Positions 3 to 5,608 of a DNA stretch of 5,608 nucleotides are shown one piece after another. Under the pieces are notes generated by a model. That model was not told the origin of the DNA and did not search any database. It saw only the letters and a program-made list of their open reading frames with translations. The position numbers and the translations under genes were made by a program. Positions within the stretch are counted from its first letter, which is position 1, and each line of letters starts with the position of its first letter. The stretch is from positions 1 through 5,608 of the forward strand of contig JAPOZF010000022.1 in assembly GCA_026706165.1 (NCBI GenBank), given 5' to 3'. This stretch comes from Gemmatimonadota bacterium (GTDB taxonomy: Bacteria > Latescibacterota > UBA2968 > UBA8231).

Positions 3-599
3 GAAGTGGAGGTCACGGTCCTGGGCGACGCCGTCGAGGGGTTGACCGTCGAGTTTTCCCGCGCCATCGCCGGCCGTTCCCGCCATTTCGCCTGGAACGC
101 GACCACCGATGCTGACGGCCAGGCGTCCCTGACTATTTACGGCGGGAGGCAGGTGAGCGGGTTCTATCAGGCCCGTGCCCGCGACGCCGACGGCGAGGTC
201 GTCGGTCAGTGGCACAGCATTCCCCTCAATGGCAACAAACGCCAGATCCTGGAACTGACGCTGGGCGGCGGCATGAGGATTGCAGGCGTCGAATCACTGG
301 CCGCGGCCAAGGCAGCAGCATCCGCCAGCGGACTGAGCCCCAATGTGCCCAACCCCTTCAACAGCACCACGCAGATCGTCTACCATCTCGCCGAGGCCGC
401 GCCCGTGCGGCTGGCGATCTACAACCTCCTCGGGCAGCCGGTGCGCACCCTCGTGGATGAGTTCCAGTCCGCCGGGGTGTACCAGGTTCTCTGGGACGCC
501 CGCGACCGGCAGGGCTCGGCGGTTGCCGCCGGGGTTTACATCGCCCGCCTGCAATACCCGGGAGGGGTGCAGACGAGGCGGCTCCTCTATCTCAGATAG
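3..599 (+). CDS. Secreted/surface protein, C-terminal part, with FlgD-Ig-like (T9SS-type) C-terminal cap; 5' partial
   Basis: The frame is open to the left edge, so the GTG at position 6 is probably internal and the gene begins upstream. The visible ~198 residues have two parts. The first ~90 look like an Ig-like or carboxypeptidase-regulatory-like beta domain ('TTDADGQASLTIYGG'). After an Ala-rich linker ('AAAKAAASAS') comes a ~85-residue FlgD-Ig-like module: 'NVPNPFNSTTQIVYHL', 'LAIYNLLGQPVRTLVDE', 'WDARDRQG', 'VAAGVYIARL', ending 'RRLLYLR'. In FCB bacteria this cap sits at the extreme C-terminus of exported proteins and often serves as a type IX-like sorting signal. The catalytic or binding part, if any, lies outside the window, so the protein's specific function is unknown. 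The stop TAG (597-599) runs directly into a hairpin. No link to the opposite-strand defence operon is visible. Confidence 0.85.
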   Translation, partial: EVEVTVLGDAVEGLTVEFSRAIAGRSRHFAWNATTDADGQASLTIYGGRQVSGFYQARARDADGEVVGQWHSIPLNGNKRQILELTLGGGMRIAGVESLAAAKAAASASGLSPNVPNPFNSTTQIVYHLAEAAPVRLAIYNLLGQPVRTLVDEFQSAGVYQVLWDARDRQGSAVAAGVYIARLQYPGGVQTRRLLYLR

Positions 600-640: not shown

Positions 641-704
641 TGGTTGTAAAGAGTGGTCCGCAAGGAAGAGCCCGAACCAACTATCGAGGACCGCAAGGTA
701 CTCG

Positions 705-713
705 AAAGGGGAG
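705..713 (+). promoter_or_regulatory. Ribosome binding site deciding the ATG 719 start
   Basis: AAAGGGGAG sits 5 bases before ATG 719, while the upstream in-frame GTG at 653 has no purine-rich site. This favours the 228-residue form of the PH-like membrane protein. No convincing sigma-70 promoter is visible in the 600-718 gap. Confidence 0.65.
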
Positions 714-718
714 TTGCC

Positions 719-1405
719 ATGTCAGAATCAAAGACAGGTGAACCGGTGTTCCTGCGGCCTTCCTTGCGGTCAAAGCTCAGTTCACTGGTAATCGTTTTGA
801 TTTTGGCCGCCCTGGCCTACGGGACGTATCGCTGGCATCCTGAGTTTGACTTTCTGGACCGACTTCTGGGAGCCTGGAGGCCGGATATTGTCGTCTTCGC
901 CTATTTCGCCTTTCTGGCCGGCGCGATCCTGCAAATGGCGGTCCTTCTCTACCACACCGTAGGAACCAGCTATTCGATCACCGGCGACCAGGTCGAGGAA
1001 TGCCATGGAATCATCGCCCAACACATCAACAGAGTCGACACGGAACACATCCGGTATGTGCACCTGGACCAGAGCATGTTGGGCCGCATCCTGGACTACG
1101 GCGACGTGGGCCTTTCGACCCTTGGAGGCCACCACCATGGATTCGATATAACCCTGGCGGGCATAATCCGTCCGAATCAAGTCCGGAACCAACTGCAAGC
1201 CGCGGCGCGGGAAGCCGAGGACAGGCGGGTTTCGAGACCTCTTCAGCCTATCGTCGAGAAGCTGACCCGTATCGAGTGCCTGTTGGAAGACCTGAATAAA
1301 GGAAAGCGGGAGGACAGGCCCCCAGGGGTCTCGGAGAATCCGAGCAGGGCCAGCGCCGGAGAGAGCAATTCGGAGGAGGACGGGGGGTCCTCATCCAGTT
1401 CATGA
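719..1405 (+). CDS. Two-helix membrane protein with bacterial PH-like domain
   Basis: The product is 228 residues. ATG 719 is chosen because AAAGGGGAG (705-713) lies 5 bases upstream; the longer GTG start at 653 would add 22 polar residues with no comparable ribosome site. Domains in order: a short charged N-terminus, TM1 about residues 21-37 (SSLVIVLILAALAYGTY), a short loop, and TM2 about 58-78. Next comes a ~75-residue soluble domain (about 84-160) with the bPH_2/YdbS-like pattern: 'YSITGDQVEECHGIIAQHINRV', an 'H/Q-S-x-L-x-R-I-L-x-Y-G-D-V' core and 'LSTLGG'. A charged helix (160-195) and a disordered acidic, Ser-rich tail ending in five serines close the protein. Such proteins are membrane-anchored with the PH-like domain probably cytoplasmic; their biochemical role is generally unknown. 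It converges on the PT operon and is probably not part of it. Confidence 0.8.
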   Translation: MSESKTGEPVFLRPSLRSKLSSLVIVLILAALAYGTYRWHPEFDFLDRLLGAWRPDIVVFAYFAFLAGAILQMAVLLYHTVGTSYSITGDQVEECHGIIAQHINRVDTEHIRYVHLDQSMLGRILDYGDVGLSTLGGHHHGFDITLAGIIRPNQVRNQLQAAAREAEDRRVSRPLQPIVEKLTRIECLLEDLNKGKREDRPPGVSENPSRASAGESNSEEDGGSSSSS

Positions 1406-1546: not shown

Positions 1547-2452
1547 TCAGGTCAGCGCCGGGCGGCGGAACACCTCTTTCTCATGCCACTTCACGAACCT
1601 GGGGTCGGGGCCGAGGCAGGTGTCCCGGGGCGCTCGAAGCGGACTGTCGTGGTAGTCGAGGAACCAGCGGACCGGGGCGCTGAGGCCGTGGACCTCGCTC
1701 GAGACCAGCACCCTGTAGCCCCCGGACTCTATCGGTTCCAGACCTAGCGCACCACGGTCGAACGCCTTGTGGTGCAGCCCGCACAACGCCAGTCCATTGG
1801 CGACCTCGTCCGGACCTCCTGCGGCATGCCACTTGATGTGTGCCGCTTCCAACCCGATCAACTCATTCCCCAGACGCACGTCGAAGTCACAGATGGCGCA
1901 CCGGCGCTGGTACTCCCGCAGAACATCGTCGCGAAAAGCCGGATCGCGCCGCGGGGGCAGGGGCGCGTCCCGTACCACCCAGGTTCGCGGGATTCCGACA
2001 GCATCGCGGATTTCATCGTGCAGGGATTCGGGGAAGTGCCCGTCCAGTAGTCTTTGGGCCGCCTCTCTCCCGAGCTCCGGCCGGTTGCGGAGCAGGTCGT
2101 ATAGCGGCCCTGGAAAACCGCCCTGCAGGCCGCGCTCGCGCAAATCACGTACTCGAAGGTCTCCACTGGCAGTGCGGTACAGGGTCTCGCTTCCGGGGAT
2201 CTCCCAGAGTCCGTCGGCGGGAAGGCGGCCGAACGGGAACTCCGGGTGCCGCGCCCTGCGGGGCGGACCAAAGTTTTTCAGGAGGTCCGTAAGCCGGGGC
2301 TCGATCTGTATGTATGGGACAAGGCGGTCCTCCATGCGGAGGATCCGCCCGAGGGCCAACAGCAGCAGCAGGGGTTTATGCGGCGCGCGTTCACCGCGTC
2401 GCTGCCAGACGTTGATGCGCTCGATCTTCTCGAGGAACTCGTCCCGGTCCAT
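1547..2452 (-). CDS. Phosphorothioated-DNA-binding HNH endonuclease (SBD-HNH, ScoMcrA/SprMcrA type)
   Basis: The product is 301 residues. The N-terminal half (about 1-155) matches the sulfur-binding domain (SBD) family: 'APHKPLLLLLALGRIL' (23-38), 'FGPPRRARHPEFPFGRL' (61-77), 'DGLWEIPG' (80-87), 'HFPESLHDEI' (139-148). In characterised members this domain holds the phosphorothioate sulfur in a hydrophobic pocket. The C-terminal half (about 171-290) is an HNH nuclease: CxxC at 185/188, 'LEAAHIKWHAAGGPDE' with H205, 'NGLAL' N219, and 'CGLHHKAFDRG' with C224, H227 and H228; the cysteines probably bind zinc. All core nuclease residues are present. Known relatives are type IV-like enzymes that cleave near PT-modified sites. 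The gene follows the PP-loop gene by 39 bases and lacks a clear ribosome site, so it may depend on translation from upstream. An in-frame TGA two codons before ATG 2452 fixes the start. It appears to be the effector of this operon; whether it cuts self or only non-self DNA cannot be told from sequence. Confidence 0.9.
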   Translation of the reverse strand: MDRDEFLEKIERINVWQRRGERAPHKPLLLLLALGRILRMEDRLVPYIQIEPRLTDLLKNFGPPRRARHPEFPFGRLPADGLWEIPGSETLYRTASGDLRVRDLRERGLQGGFPGPLYDLLRNRPELGREAAQRLLDGHFPESLHDEIRDAVGIPRTWVVRDAPLPPRRDPAFRDDVLREYQRRCAICDFDVRLGNELIGLEAAHIKWHAAGGPDEVANGLALCGLHHKAFDRGALGLEPIESGGYRVLVSSEVHGLSAPVRWFLDYHDSPLRAPRDTCLGPDPRFVKWHEKEVFRRPALT

Positions 2453-2491
2453 AGATCAGAAAGAGGCCGAGATCCGGGCGTACCGTCAAGG

Positions 2492-3307
2492 TTACAGATG
2501 GCACACGGCACAACCTTCGGCCAGATCTGGCGCCGGGATCTCCTCGCGTTCCGGCAGCTCCGCAATCCTGAGTAGCGGTCGTCCGTCTACCCAGGTATAG
2601 CCCCGGTCTCCGGCGCTATCCTGCTCATACCCCATTGCTTTTTCGAAAAGATCCGGGTGGACTTCCTTGAGGTTCTGCCACTCCCCGACCTGCTGGTAGA
2701 AACAGAAATAACATCCGGAACGGGACCGCCAGCGGTAGTAACCGGGCAAACCGATTCCCGATTCGGTCAGAATTCGCTTGATGTCCTCAAGGTCCATCCC
2801 CGCGTCCTTGAAAGGGTACACGGGCAGGATGTTCGGCCGCTGCGAAATCACCGGTGGCTTCTTCGATTGGTACCCCTCTCTGTCCTCGTCGCCGCGGATC
2901 CCGATATAGCTGAACGCCTGGCTGTCGCTGACGAAGCGTTCGAACGGCTGAATCTTCAGCGCCCTCGTGCACCATCTCGAACGGGGATTCGGCAGGTATC
3001 CGCCATAGAGCTCGTTCAGGTAGAGGTCGAAGGGATTGCGCCCGGGCTTCCTCGCGACCTTGAGGTCGTCGAGAGCATTGAGTCGCTGCACCTCCACGCC
3101 CAGGAGTGCTTCCAGCCGTTCGAGATACTCGTAAGTTTCGGGCAATTCGCAGCCGGTATCGCAGAACACGTACTCCGCGGGGATCTCCGGGAAACTCTGG
3201 CGCAAGTACAGGGCGAGCGCGGTCGAGTCCTTGCCGCCGGAAATACTGACGATGTGGCGGATGCTCTTGTCGGACAGGCTTTCCAACGCCTCTTGCATGC
3301 TAGCCAT
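2492..3307 (-). CDS. sspD: PP-loop ATP pyrophosphatase / PAPS-reductase family, DndC/SspD-like DNA sulfur-modification protein
   Basis: The product is 271 residues from ATG 3307. The PP-loop 'SISGGKDSTALAL' lies near residues 22-34. It is followed by 'EYVFCDTGCELPETYEYL', a typical PAPS-reductase-family strand/turn, 'SRWCTRALKIQPFERFV' (Cys ~113), 'GIRGDEDREGY', a 'SGCYFC' CxxC pair (~199/202) and a C-terminal 'GCAVC' CxxC pair (~266/269). The PP-loop hydrolyses ATP to AMP and PPi to activate a substrate. In DndC/SspD the cysteines hold an Fe-S cluster used in sulfur transfer to the DNA backbone; which cysteines do so here is inferred. The start is ambiguous: TTG 3310 has the better spacing (6 bases) to GGAGG at 3317-3321, while ATG 3307 has 9 bases and forms TGATG with the upstream small ORF; ATG is preferred. 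The SspD reading, rather than a metabolic PAPS reductase, rests on the DUF4007, desulfurase and SBD-HNH neighbours. Confidence 0.85.
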   Translation of the reverse strand: MASMQEALESLSDKSIRHIVSISGGKDSTALALYLRQSFPEIPAEYVFCDTGCELPETYEYLERLEALLGVEVQRLNALDDLKVARKPGRNPFDLYLNELYGGYLPNPRSRWCTRALKIQPFERFVSDSQAFSYIGIRGDEDREGYQSKKPPVISQRPNILPVYPFKDAGMDLEDIKRILTESGIGLPGYYRWRSRSGCYFCFYQQVGEWQNLKEVHPDLFEKAMGYEQDSAGDRGYTWVDGRPLLRIAELPEREEIPAPDLAEGCAVCHL

Positions 3308-3526
3308 CAAGCGATTCCTCCCTCCTCTTTCGGCGAATCAGGGACAGCCTTCTCAGCTTCCATCTCGCCGAGGAGACGACGAGCCCGGCGAACAATTCAT
3401 CAATTCGGTCCTCGACGGAAGTGGGCGATCCGACCTGGCTCTTCCGTCGTTGACGATGTTTATCGAACGCAGAAATGAGTCCTGCGAGACAGGGTCTCTG
3501 GCCGTGGATTTTGATTTAAGCTGCAT
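3307..3526 (-). pseudogene. Frame-disrupted small ORF between the DUF4007 and PP-loop genes
   Basis: No family was recognised. Seen directly: ATG 3526 has GGAGG (3533-3537) six bases upstream and overlaps the DUF4007 stop by 11 bases. The frame starting there ('MQLKSKSTARDPVSQDSFLR', 57 residues) stops at 3353. A second frame is open in the middle ('TSVEDRIDELFAGL'), and a third at the end ('RRLLGEMEAEKAVPD', then 'SPKEEGGIA') stops in a TGATG overlap with the PP-loop gene. Reading across the three frames needs one extra base near the C run at 3423-3425 and one near the G run (minus strand) at 3384-3386. That gives a continuous ~73-residue charged protein with one amphipathic helix. This reconstruction is inference: it could be a decayed gene, two sequencing or assembly indels, or a real 57-residue ORF (3353-3526) followed by a short spacer. 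Confidence 0.45.
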
Positions 3527-4424
3527 GGAGCCCCTCCGATCCCGCATGGGTGAAATATTCATCCAGCCAGTTCGTTTCTTCCCGTCGCTCGACGACGAGG
3601 TTTCGCTGCCCCGCCAGTCCGTGGATTTCGAGACCGACCTGCTCGTCTTCCGCCTGAATCGCGGCCTCGTACAGGTCTTCCGCGGACATGCAGAAGGCGT
3701 TCCCCGGACCGCCCCGCCGGTGTGACGACTCCTGGACCGAGGCCTGGATCGGGCCGTCGTGGGCGTCGTCGCCGAAGGCCCTGGTCAGGGAATAGCACAG
3801 GATATGAGCGGGAATCGCTTTCGTGCCCTGGTCGACCTCGTAGTACCCGCTTGTCCGGTAGTGGGACAGCAAGCCGAGCTCGGTGAACGGAGACTCCTGC
3901 GCCTCCTCCGGATCCACTTCCCTGTCCGGGATGCTTTTCGAATAGCTCAGAAGCAGGCAGCTCACGTCCCGGTCGAGGGTGCGGGGGCTGGGCATGCGGC
4001 CGCGATGCATCTGGAGGAACCGTTGCAGTCCCTCGACGCATACCGCCTTGTCGAAGCGCTGGAGCTTGAATCTGTTGAAGAACCAATCCCAGGTGAACGC
4101 GTGCTCCTCCCTGCTGATCAGGTTCACGTGAAGCGCCCACCAAGTGCCTGTGTCGGTGAAGTAGGGATCGCGTTCCCAGATTAGGCGCCCCAGGCGGGTA
4201 GTTTTCAGCTGGGCGCTTTTCCGAGGCCTCTTCCCCGAGACTTGCTCGCACAGGCCGGTCGCCTGGAGCCAAAAGCGGATCGACTTGGCCATGTTTCTGC
4301 CCACACCGAGCCAGTCGGCAACGTGCTCGTCAACGAGCTTTTCGGGTTCTTCGACGACGAGCTTCAACCCTTTGTGCAGCCACCCTTCCCGGACGGGGAA
4401 GGTCTCGTGTCCTCCGAATTTCAT
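3516..4424 (-). CDS. sspB: DUF4007 family protein, SspB-like component of DNA phosphorothioation
   Basis: The product is 302 residues, the usual length for the family. The N-terminus 'MKFGGHETFPVREGWLHKGL' is the DUF4007 signature (F-x-G-H-E-T-F-x-x-R-x-x-W-L-x-K-G). Next come a helical, winged-helix-like region ('DWLGVGRNMAKSIRFWLQATG', about 39-59), an aromatic stretch ('TGTWWALHVNLISREE', 'FTWDWFFNRF') and a mixed C-terminal half with 'ERDPYF' and 'LLSHYRTSGYYEVD' motifs. Members sit beside PAPS-reductase-like and desulfurase genes in PT clusters. I equate it with SspB, reported as the DNA-nicking component of SspABCD, from family memory and context; no catalytic motif is assigned. ATG 4424 overlaps the desulfurase stop as ATGA and has GGAGG (4432-4436) seven bases upstream, indicating translational coupling. 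No disruption is seen. Confidence 0.82.
   Translation of the reverse strand: MKFGGHETFPVREGWLHKGLKLVVEEPEKLVDEHVADWLGVGRNMAKSIRFWLQATGLCEQVSGKRPRKSAQLKTTRLGRLIWERDPYFTDTGTWWALHVNLISREEHAFTWDWFFNRFKLQRFDKAVCVEGLQRFLQMHRGRMPSPRTLDRDVSCLLLSYSKSIPDREVDPEEAQESPFTELGLLSHYRTSGYYEVDQGTKAIPAHILCYSLTRAFGDDAHDGPIQASVQESSHRRGGPGNAFCMSAEDLYEAAIQAEDEQVGLEIHGLAGQRNLVVERREETNWLDEYFTHAGSEGLHAA
3533..3537 (-). promoter_or_regulatory. Ribosome binding site inside the DUF4007 gene, for the small ORF
   Basis: GGAGG, within GGAGGGG on the minus strand, lies six bases before ATG 3526 and inside the last codons of the DUF4007 gene. A well-placed site at this point is the main reason to believe that a small gene starts here, rather than that the 200 bases are plain spacer. 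Confidence 0.5.
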
Positions 4425-4436
4425 TCGGTCACCTCC
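4421..4436 (-). promoter_or_regulatory. ATGA translational coupling junction with strong ribosome site
   Basis: The desulfurase stop TGA (4423-4421) and DUF4007 start ATG (4424-4422) share two bases. GGAGGTGA begins at 4436 inside the last desulfurase codons, with seven bases between GGAGG and ATG. This supports co-translation of the two proteins from one message. Confidence 0.75.
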
Positions 4437-5608
4437 GACGGCTCCGTTTGGCTTGTGTCCTTCCAGTCCGAAAATGCCCTTACCTGTTCCACAACTTCGG
4501 CCACAGCGGTGGCCGCAGCGACCACCTCCTCCTCGCTGTTCAGCACCGACAAGCTGAAGCGGACGCTTGCGTAGGCTTCCTCCTCAGACAGTCCCATTGC
4601 CCGCAGCACGTGCGAGGGCTCCGGCCGGTGGTTGGTGCATGCCGAGCTTTGCGAACACCGGATCCCGCGCTGGTCCAACCGGGCAACCAGGGCCTGCCCG
4701 TCCACGCCGTCAAGGAGCAGGTTCGTGGTGTTGCACACGCGGGTGGCGCGCCCCCCGTTTAGGGACACGCCGGCGCACCGGTCCATGACCTCGCTCTCGA
4801 ACAGATCGCGCAGCTTGTCGAGCCGGGTGATGGTCTCGAGGAGAGAGCCTGCACGTATGCCGGCAGCACATCCCATCCCGGCGATGCCCGGGACGTTCTC
4901 GGTGCCTGCCCGCAGGCCCGACTCCTGATCGCCGCCGTCCAGGAGCCCCCTGAGGTCGCCGCTGCCGCGCAGGTACAGGACGCCTGTGCCGGGCGGGCTG
5001 TGAAACTTGTGCCCGGCAATCGACGCAAAGTCGACCGGCAGTTCCCGCAGATTCACCGGCAACTTTCCTATTGCTTGGGCCGCGTCCGTGTGAAAGGGCA
5101 CCCCGGCTTCCGAGCAGATTCGCCCGAAATCCTCGACGGGTTGGACGACCCCGGTCTCGCTGTTCACCCACTGAATCGATACCAGGGCGGTCTCCCCGGC
5201 AATCGCTTCCCGCAGGTCTTCCGGATCGACGAGCCCGCTCCTGCCCACGGGAAGCAGCACGACCTTTGTCCCTTCACCCTCGGCCCTTTCGAGAGCGGCG
5301 AGGACGGAGGAGTGTTCGACCGCGGTCGAGACGATCCTTTTTCCCGGCCCGGAGAAACTGCGAATGAGGGTGTTGTTCGCTTCGGTGGCGCCGCTGGTGA
5401 AGACGACCGAGGTGGGCTCGCATCCGAGAAGGGAGGCCAGCGACGACCTCGCGTCGCTCAGCTGCTCGCGCGAACGGTCGCCTGCTGCATGGCTGCTTGA
5501 GGGATTGCCGAACGCCTCGCCCATTGCATTCAGTACCGCGGCTCGGACTTCCGTGGCCAGGCTGCCGTGTTCTTCGGAGAGACTGAGCAGCTCAATCCCC
5601 GGCGGGTC
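4421..5608 (-). CDS. sspA: Cysteine desulfurase (class V aminotransferase fold), SspA/DndA role; 5' end outside window
   Basis: A PLP enzyme that takes sulfur from L-cysteine as a persulfide. 395 codons are visible and the frame is open to the right edge, so the first in-window ATG (5524), which lies just before 'GEAFGNPSSSH', is internal. Numbering from that Met: 'FTSGATEANN' (42-51, PLP phosphate binding), H71 in 'AVEHSS' (stacks on PLP), 'FHTDAAQAIGK' with D147 and Q150, K173 in 'AGHKFH' (the PLP Schiff-base lysine), 'GLRAGTENVPGIAG' (203-216), and catalytic Cys296 in 'CSQSSACTNHRPEPSHVL'. The fold and active site are complete. Two oddities: the usual 'GPKG' after the lysine is 'SPPG', and the family's N-terminal 'D-x-N-A-T-T' is not seen where expected. 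The ATGA overlap with DUF4007 makes it the sulfur donor of the operon; a general IscS-like role is less likely. Confidence 0.9.
   Translation of the reverse strand, partial: DPPGIELLSLSEEHGSLATEVRAAVLNAMGEAFGNPSSSHAAGDRSREQLSDARSSLASLLGCEPTSVVFTSGATEANNTLIRSFSGPGKRIVSTAVEHSSVLAALERAEGEGTKVVLLPVGRSGLVDPEDLREAIAGETALVSIQWVNSETGVVQPVEDFGRICSEAGVPFHTDAAQAIGKLPVNLRELPVDFASIAGHKFHSPPGTGVLYLRGSGDLRGLLDGGDQESGLRAGTENVPGIAGMGCAAGIRAGSLLETITRLDKLRDLFESEVMDRCAGVSLNGGRATRVCNTTNLLLDGVDGQALVARLDQRGIRCSQSSACTNHRPEPSHVLRAMGLSEEEAYASVRFSLSVLNSEEEVVAAATAVAEVVEQVRAFSDWKDTSQTEPSEVTE

Follow-up and report, generated by a model that had tools for sequence, protein, structure and literature searches.

An Ssp phosphorothioation operon with a remnant of sspC between sspB and sspD and a predicted phosphorothioate-dependent nuclease gene at its end

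The locus described here raises the question of what becomes of an Ssp phosphorothioation operon that is missing its ATPase gene, given that SspC is indispensable in characterised Ssp systems. In a stretch of 5,608 nucleotides of contig JAPOZF010000022.1 (assembly GCA_026706165.1, a bacterium placed by GTDB in Latescibacterota), which is referred to as a whole as the window, genes for SspA, SspB and SspD are followed by a gene for an SBD-HNH nuclease, and the place of sspC is held by a short scar. Our reading, to which we give a probability of about two in three, is that this Ssp operon was crippled by deletion of sspC, that the writing of phosphorothioates is most likely off, and that the last gene of the operon encodes a predicted type IV enzyme that cuts phosphorothioated DNA.

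The four genes all lie on the minus strand within positions 1547-5608, in the order sspA, sspB, sspD and SBD-HNH. An earlier interpretation made from the sequence alone (the sequence-only reading) had described a co-directional run of desulfurase, DUF4007, PP-loop and SBD-HNH genes, and the family models agree with it. The features on which the argument turns are the following:

4421 to 5608, minus strand: sspA, cysteine desulfurase, open at the window edge (PADLOC SspA, 385 bits)
3516 to 4424, minus strand: sspB, DUF4007 protein, frame intact (PF13182, 222 bits; PADLOC SspB, 368 bits)
3353 to 3562, minus strand: small open reading frame (ORF) of 69 codons, overlapping sspB by 47 bases, with no family match
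3415 to 3526, minus strand: scar of the 5' end of sspC, with 27 codons in frame followed by about 10 codons in the next frame
3343 to 3416, minus strand: possible remnant of the sspC 3' end, a weak match to the last 60 residues of SspC
2492 to 3310, minus strand: sspD, PP-loop ATP pyrophosphatase or PAPS-reductase-like protein, frame intact (PADLOC SspD, 300 bits)
1547 to 2452, minus strand: SBD-HNH, phosphorothioate-dependent restriction enzyme family (NF045808, 308 bits with a cut-off of 180; HNH_2)

With the SspB alignment A1 as query, the sspB product corresponds to the SspB structures 6juf and 6lb9 in the PDB (E value 8e-37). The genes sspA and sspB overlap by 4 bases, sspD probably starts at the ATG at 3304, and 39 bases separate it from the SBD-HNH gene. 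The junctions had been called coupled, which is right for sspA/sspB and wrong for sspB/sspD, since the latter two genes stand 205 bases apart (3311-3515). The claim that this gap holds no SspC-type ATPase stands: no ATPase gene is present in 3311-3515, and the frames of sspB and sspD on either side are open.

What is left of sspC is clearest at its 5' end. The scar begins inside the end of sspB, as sspC does in intact operons, and reads from 3526 to 3446 in the frame of the sspC start codon and from 3444 to 3415 in the next frame. Both segments follow the conserved N-terminus of SspC (FLRSIN...EEPxRIAHFR) and end before the Walker A region. Compared with the first 60 residues of four SspC proteins, the interval scores 54 (P0188), 52 (P0172), 61 (P0123) and 41 (P0225); in 2000 dinucleotide shuffles of the interval made for each SspC query, these scores were equalled by none for the first three proteins and by four for P0225. 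The match further downstream is suggestive of a 3' remnant following the 5' scar, its scores being equalled by 26 (P0188), 53 (P0172), 299 (P0123) and 1204 (P0225) of the 2000 shuffles. A large internal part of sspC appears to have been deleted, leaving the first 37 or so codons, frame-broken, and perhaps the tail too. That the scar can still be recognised suggests a recent loss of sspC in the window lineage.

The small ORF had been put forward by the sequence-only reading as a different small partner in place of SspC, and this is not borne out. It crosses the sspC scar, and its G+C content by codon position (0.46/0.58/0.61) differs from that of the neighbouring A, B, D and HNH genes (0.61-0.74/0.42-0.50/0.76-0.79), which together rule it out as a novel small partner; most likely it is no gene, just a frame that runs by accident through the scar. 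A search of a protein collection with the scar reading, a very short query without a positive control, returned one candidate and no match.

In related operons the space between B and D is usually filled by an ATPase of about 990-1240 residues. Loci were found with alignment A1 (the best 80 of 170 in genome contigs, plus two viral); B was above threshold in 81 of these 82, the one below (L059) having SspC, and nine of the 81 run out before their SspC status can be judged. Among the 72 judgeable loci, SspC is full length in 66, frameshifted at normal spacing in four (L008, L044, L045, L053) and lost in two (L001, L021). Where SspC is full length and D lies within 6 kb (60 loci), B and D are 2843-3697 bases apart, with a median of 3308. 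In three phylum samples SspB was matched in 13 of 64, 14 of 395 and 11 of 392 genomes, and the resulting 41 loci represent 39 distinct SspB genes, several of which re-find earlier loci; within the short flank available, SspC directly follows B in 37 of the 39, and the exceptions are again those of L001 and L021. The linkage of SspB to SspC holds as near-invariable in the nearer relatives, to which it is narrowed by the Streptomyces regions described below. As SspC follows SspB almost without exception in the nearest relatives, losses of SspC alone amount to natural knock-outs, and such loci can show what the ATPase does and whether A, B and D act on their own.

The ancestor of the window lineage probably had SspC. 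In a tree of SspB, the window groups with P0001 (98%; on a 320-kb contig) and P0002 (97%), inside an 11-member group that includes L001 and P0008 (support 0.999), with P0009 and P0099 as outgroups. P0008 (72% SspB identity) and P0009 (62%) are on contigs equal in size to those of the SspC proteins P0188 and P0172, the contig of P0099 equals in size that of SspC P0225, and it is this pairing that points to an ancestral SspC. Equal contig size is an indirect sign of the same contig, and clusters may list different members. On the SspB side the comparison covered 52 proteins out of 120 listed, mostly from longer contigs, and on the SspC side the best 120 of 835 matches, scored among the 7993 candidates sharing most words; 17 of the 52 match a listed SspC in contig size. 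In another member of the SspB group (P0080, on a 90-kb contig) the later part of SspB is out of frame, a possible sign of decay.

The second locus with A, B and D and no SspC, L001, comes from the metagenome-assembled genome Gemmatimonadaceae COS4_bin_9 (the phylum sample also has loci titled Latescibacteria or Latescibacterota). It has the same A-B-D arrangement, its proteins being 77% (A), 80% (B) and 94% (D) identical to those of the window, and its B-D interval is 59 bases without a remnant like the window scar. Its genome bin of about 5.6 Mb, which may be incomplete, gave no SspC match in a scan that matched SspC in 12 of 13 bins (in that of L021 as a truncated piece only), and relocation of SspC within the bin was ruled out on this ground. 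DndD as a replacement ATPase was likewise ruled out, there being no match in the bin to a model that gave hits in 9 of 14 control genomes, never above the cut-off, and is thus sensitive but not specific. Directly after sspD (11811-12890) L001 encodes an SBD fused to a NOV_C domain, and this SBD matches the solved SBDHga1 (8h0l) with an E value of 4e-44; the C-terminal part of the protein also matches the PADLOC candidate PDC-S36 (175 bits). The window scar covers nine SspC residues whose conservation in alignment A2 is 90% or higher, and all nine persist (read by eye); a rough clock puts the probability of this at about 2e-5 to 7e-4 for a scar free of selection since the lineages of the window and L001 split. 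The window deletion therefore looks younger than that split, and with the 59 bases of L001 free of any remnant, the two deletions were probably separate events. L001 would have come to a similar outcome with a different SBD nuclease alongside.

The third case, L021, is a planctomycete contig (of very low coverage according to its title) in which SspC stops shortly after Walker A and in whose bin no SspD match was found. Two of its features are used below:

693 to 1097: truncated sspC
5418 to 6317, opposite strand: SBD-HNH (201 bits), 4.6 kb from B

The consequences of losing sspC can be approached from characterised systems. SspC is described as a ring-forming ATPase of the ORC/Cdc6 clade that acts with SspB (PMC10853773, PMC12707154), the desulfurase as replaceable by IscS (PMC8092258), and SspA as forming complexes with SspD (PMC7188994). 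SspC being the AAA+ ATPase of the known Ssp systems, the writing of phosphorothioates by the window locus has most likely ceased. With the writer off, SBD-HNH would be harmless to its host and could cut incoming phosphorothioated DNA as a stand-alone type IV defence. The enzyme itself is a full-length NF045808 match with both SBD and HNH parts present; its SBD matches ScoMcrA (5zmm and 7cc9), and in the alignment to ScoMcrA, with pocket residues taken from PMC6224610, it has an HK pair at the HR and Phe-Pro at the Tyr-Pro of that protein. SBD enzymes are expected beside dnd genes only rarely, for example where the modification cluster is mutated (PMC7461809), and the window would fit this expectation if it is carried over by analogy to ssp. 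The persistence of A, B and D could mean that the loss is recent or that they retain some use.

Both SspC-less A-B-D operons, those of the window and L001, run straight into an SBD nuclease gene. SBD proteins were found in the flanks of L001, L021, L039 (where SspC is not judgeable) and L052 (where it is intact), so that an SBD lies near three of three SspC-less loci (window, L001, L021) versus one of 70 that keep SspC (66 full, four frameshifted). Expressed the other way, SspC is lost in two of three judgeable loci with an SBD versus none of 69 without (Fisher 0.0012), and in three of four when the window is added (6e-5). No further SBD proteins appeared in the fetched flanks at a convincing E-value with a profile built from the five proteins that it then found, which could for this reason miss other SBD types. 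If the SBD link is true, these loci offer a concrete case of the predicted conflict between phosphorothioate writers and phosphorothioate-cutting enzymes.

A number of results weigh against reading the window as a crippled operon with its writer off. The requirement for SspC is known from other organisms. The association with SBD was noticed post hoc and in three cases only, and as a trade-off it fails genome-wide: SBD-HNH above cut-off occurs in 9 of 80 Ssp genomes, and in five of these (L016, L019, L052, L054, L069) the locus has a full SspC; in L052 SspC is retained and an SBD-HNH of 179 bits (cut-off 180) lies immediately upstream of sspA, which is fragmented. Plasmid searches gave 96 records matching SspB and 67 matching the SspC of L002 (counts not paired per record), and in all four Streptomyces plasmid regions considered (L124-L127, from 29 such records; SspB identity about 27-33%) no large ATPase/SspC or SspD is annotated near the DUF4007 gene, so that the presence of SspC cannot be deduced from DUF4007 alone.

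The state of sspA, sspB and sspD also counts on that side. Between the window and L001, nonsynonymous and synonymous divergence (dN/dS, by NG86) is 0.155/0.73 for A, 0.146/0.88 for B and 0.038/1.07 for D, a mark of strong purifying selection. Pairs of similar divergence that have SspC span these values, that of B being towards the upper end: 0.151/0.99, 0.060/0.87 and 0.030/0.64 for A, B and D of L067/L071; 0.099/0.84, 0.072/0.76 and 0.003/1.05 for L020/L029; and 0.110/0.39 for B of L002/L005. Few near-invariant columns are changed in the window (4 of 66 in A, 2 of 46 in B, 0 of 57 in D) and fewer in L001 (0, 1 and 0), to be read beside 0-5 in A, 0-3 in B and mostly 0-1 in D across 23 SspC-bearing loci, barring a few mispredicted or partial ones. 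Plain decay would not readily explain why two lineages without SspC have both kept A, B and D. By these measures selection appears to have acted on the three genes through most of their past; as the loss of sspC is recent, the constraint may simply predate it.

There are possible signs of further decay in the altered N-terminus of the window sspA and the out-of-frame SspB of P0080. The first 20 or so visible residues of SspA lack the N-terminal motif of D-N-N-A-T type, in which three of the four changed near-invariant columns of the protein fall; positions 5545-5608 align poorly with A of L001, and there is an internal ATG at 5524. The motif was matched in 56 of 67 long A proteins, and besides the window the remaining ten comprise seven motif variants, one protein that starts inside the motif at a contig end and two that are unresolved. 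The missing motif coincides with the window edge and could be an edge artefact or a second lesion.

The rival that survives best, although we think it unlikely, is a reduced, SspC-free phosphorothioation system in which SspB nicks, sulfur comes from SspA and SspD, and the SBD nuclease serves as a dedicated reader or effector. It would explain why A, B and D are constrained and retain nearly all conserved residues, but the operon holds a recognisable scar, which speaks for recent loss, and sspA has an altered N-terminus. L001 shows the A-B-D-SBD nuclease order again, its nuclease-like domain being of another kind (NOV_C), in a bin that matches neither SspC nor DndD, and three SspB proteins on long contigs (P0001, P0003, P0005) have no contig-size partner among the SspC matches listed (120 of 835), which is suggestive; SspC otherwise stands directly after SspB in the nearest relatives, and no candidate replacement ATPase was seen in its stead. 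Moreover, a nuclease that cuts marked DNA would harm a host with an active writer beside it, unless the sequence contexts differ.

A more general and still more doubtful proposal is that Ssp operons repeatedly trade the writer for a reader: an SBD nuclease would arrive, sspC would be lost (window and L001, with a truncated form in L021), and in the window and L001 what is left, A-B-D with the SBD nuclease, would persist as a working module without SspC. This module would be a minimal phosphorothioation system or else a sulfur-relay/nicking complex that has been repurposed and coupled to the nuclease. That SspC is instead supplied from elsewhere in the genome, from beyond 5608 upstream of sspA or from another locus, we regard as improbable; the upstream sequence does lie outside the window, but the closest bin available, that of L001 (with the incompleteness mentioned above), has no SspC, and the ORF of 443 codons upstream of the L001 sspA matches no family. 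That the true operon has sspC and the window reflects an assembly artefact or a misjoin in the metagenome contig is very improbable: this view could appeal to the single window and to an odd sspA at its edge, but the scar keeps the sspC start, has a frame change of its own and sits between open genes, and L001 (coverage 27.6 per contig title) is also without sspC.

The crippled operon that we favour resembles SspABCD of the Vibrio cyclitrophicus FF75 type in its SspA, SspB (DUF4007) and SspD, in their usual order and strand and in the position of the sspC scar, and it differs in having no SspC ATPase. In the literature searched, as far as its sections were available (including PMC11931770 and PMC8569181), we found no description of an Ssp locus without SspC, and one may exist in print. 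Its nuclease scores above the curated cut-off of the family of ScoMcrA, SprMcrA and EcoWI (NF045808), from which cleavage of phosphorothioated DNA is predicted; unlike those enzymes, of a kind reported to be rare beside dnd genes (PMC7461809), it is the last gene of an ssp operon. Type 4 BREX, made up of BrxC, a PAPS reductase, DUF4007, PglZ and BrxL (PMC12839542), shares the DUF4007 and PAPS-reductase-like components, but BrxC, PglZ and BrxL were not matched among the window proteins scanned, and the window D protein scores 33 bits as BrxP, far below its SspD score. DndABCDE likewise combines a desulfurase with PP-loop sulfur transfer, but D reaches only 24 bits with the DndC model (cut-off 290) and neither DndD nor DndE was matched in the window.

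Among the window proteins scanned, none was named as SspE or SspFGH, and the window has no Rfam match. Promoter-like sites (0, with 0.5 in shuffles) and terminator-like sites (5, with 3.9 +/- 2.5) are not above chance. Elsewhere, two IMG/VR viral contigs (L081, L082) have A-B-C-D operons whose SspC is 1118 residues long, and two SspC-bearing operons have weak DGQHR/DndB-like matches downstream of sspD (L002, 15693-17987; L011, 15614-17428). N-6 DNA methylase genes lie nearby in three of the four Streptomyces regions and DUF6884 genes in three of the four, possibly a separate setting for DUF4007. The rest of the window holds two plus-strand features, both seemingly unrelated to the operon:

653 to 1405, plus strand: bacterial PH-domain protein
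3 to 599, plus strand: end of a protein with FlgD-like and Por-type sorting domains

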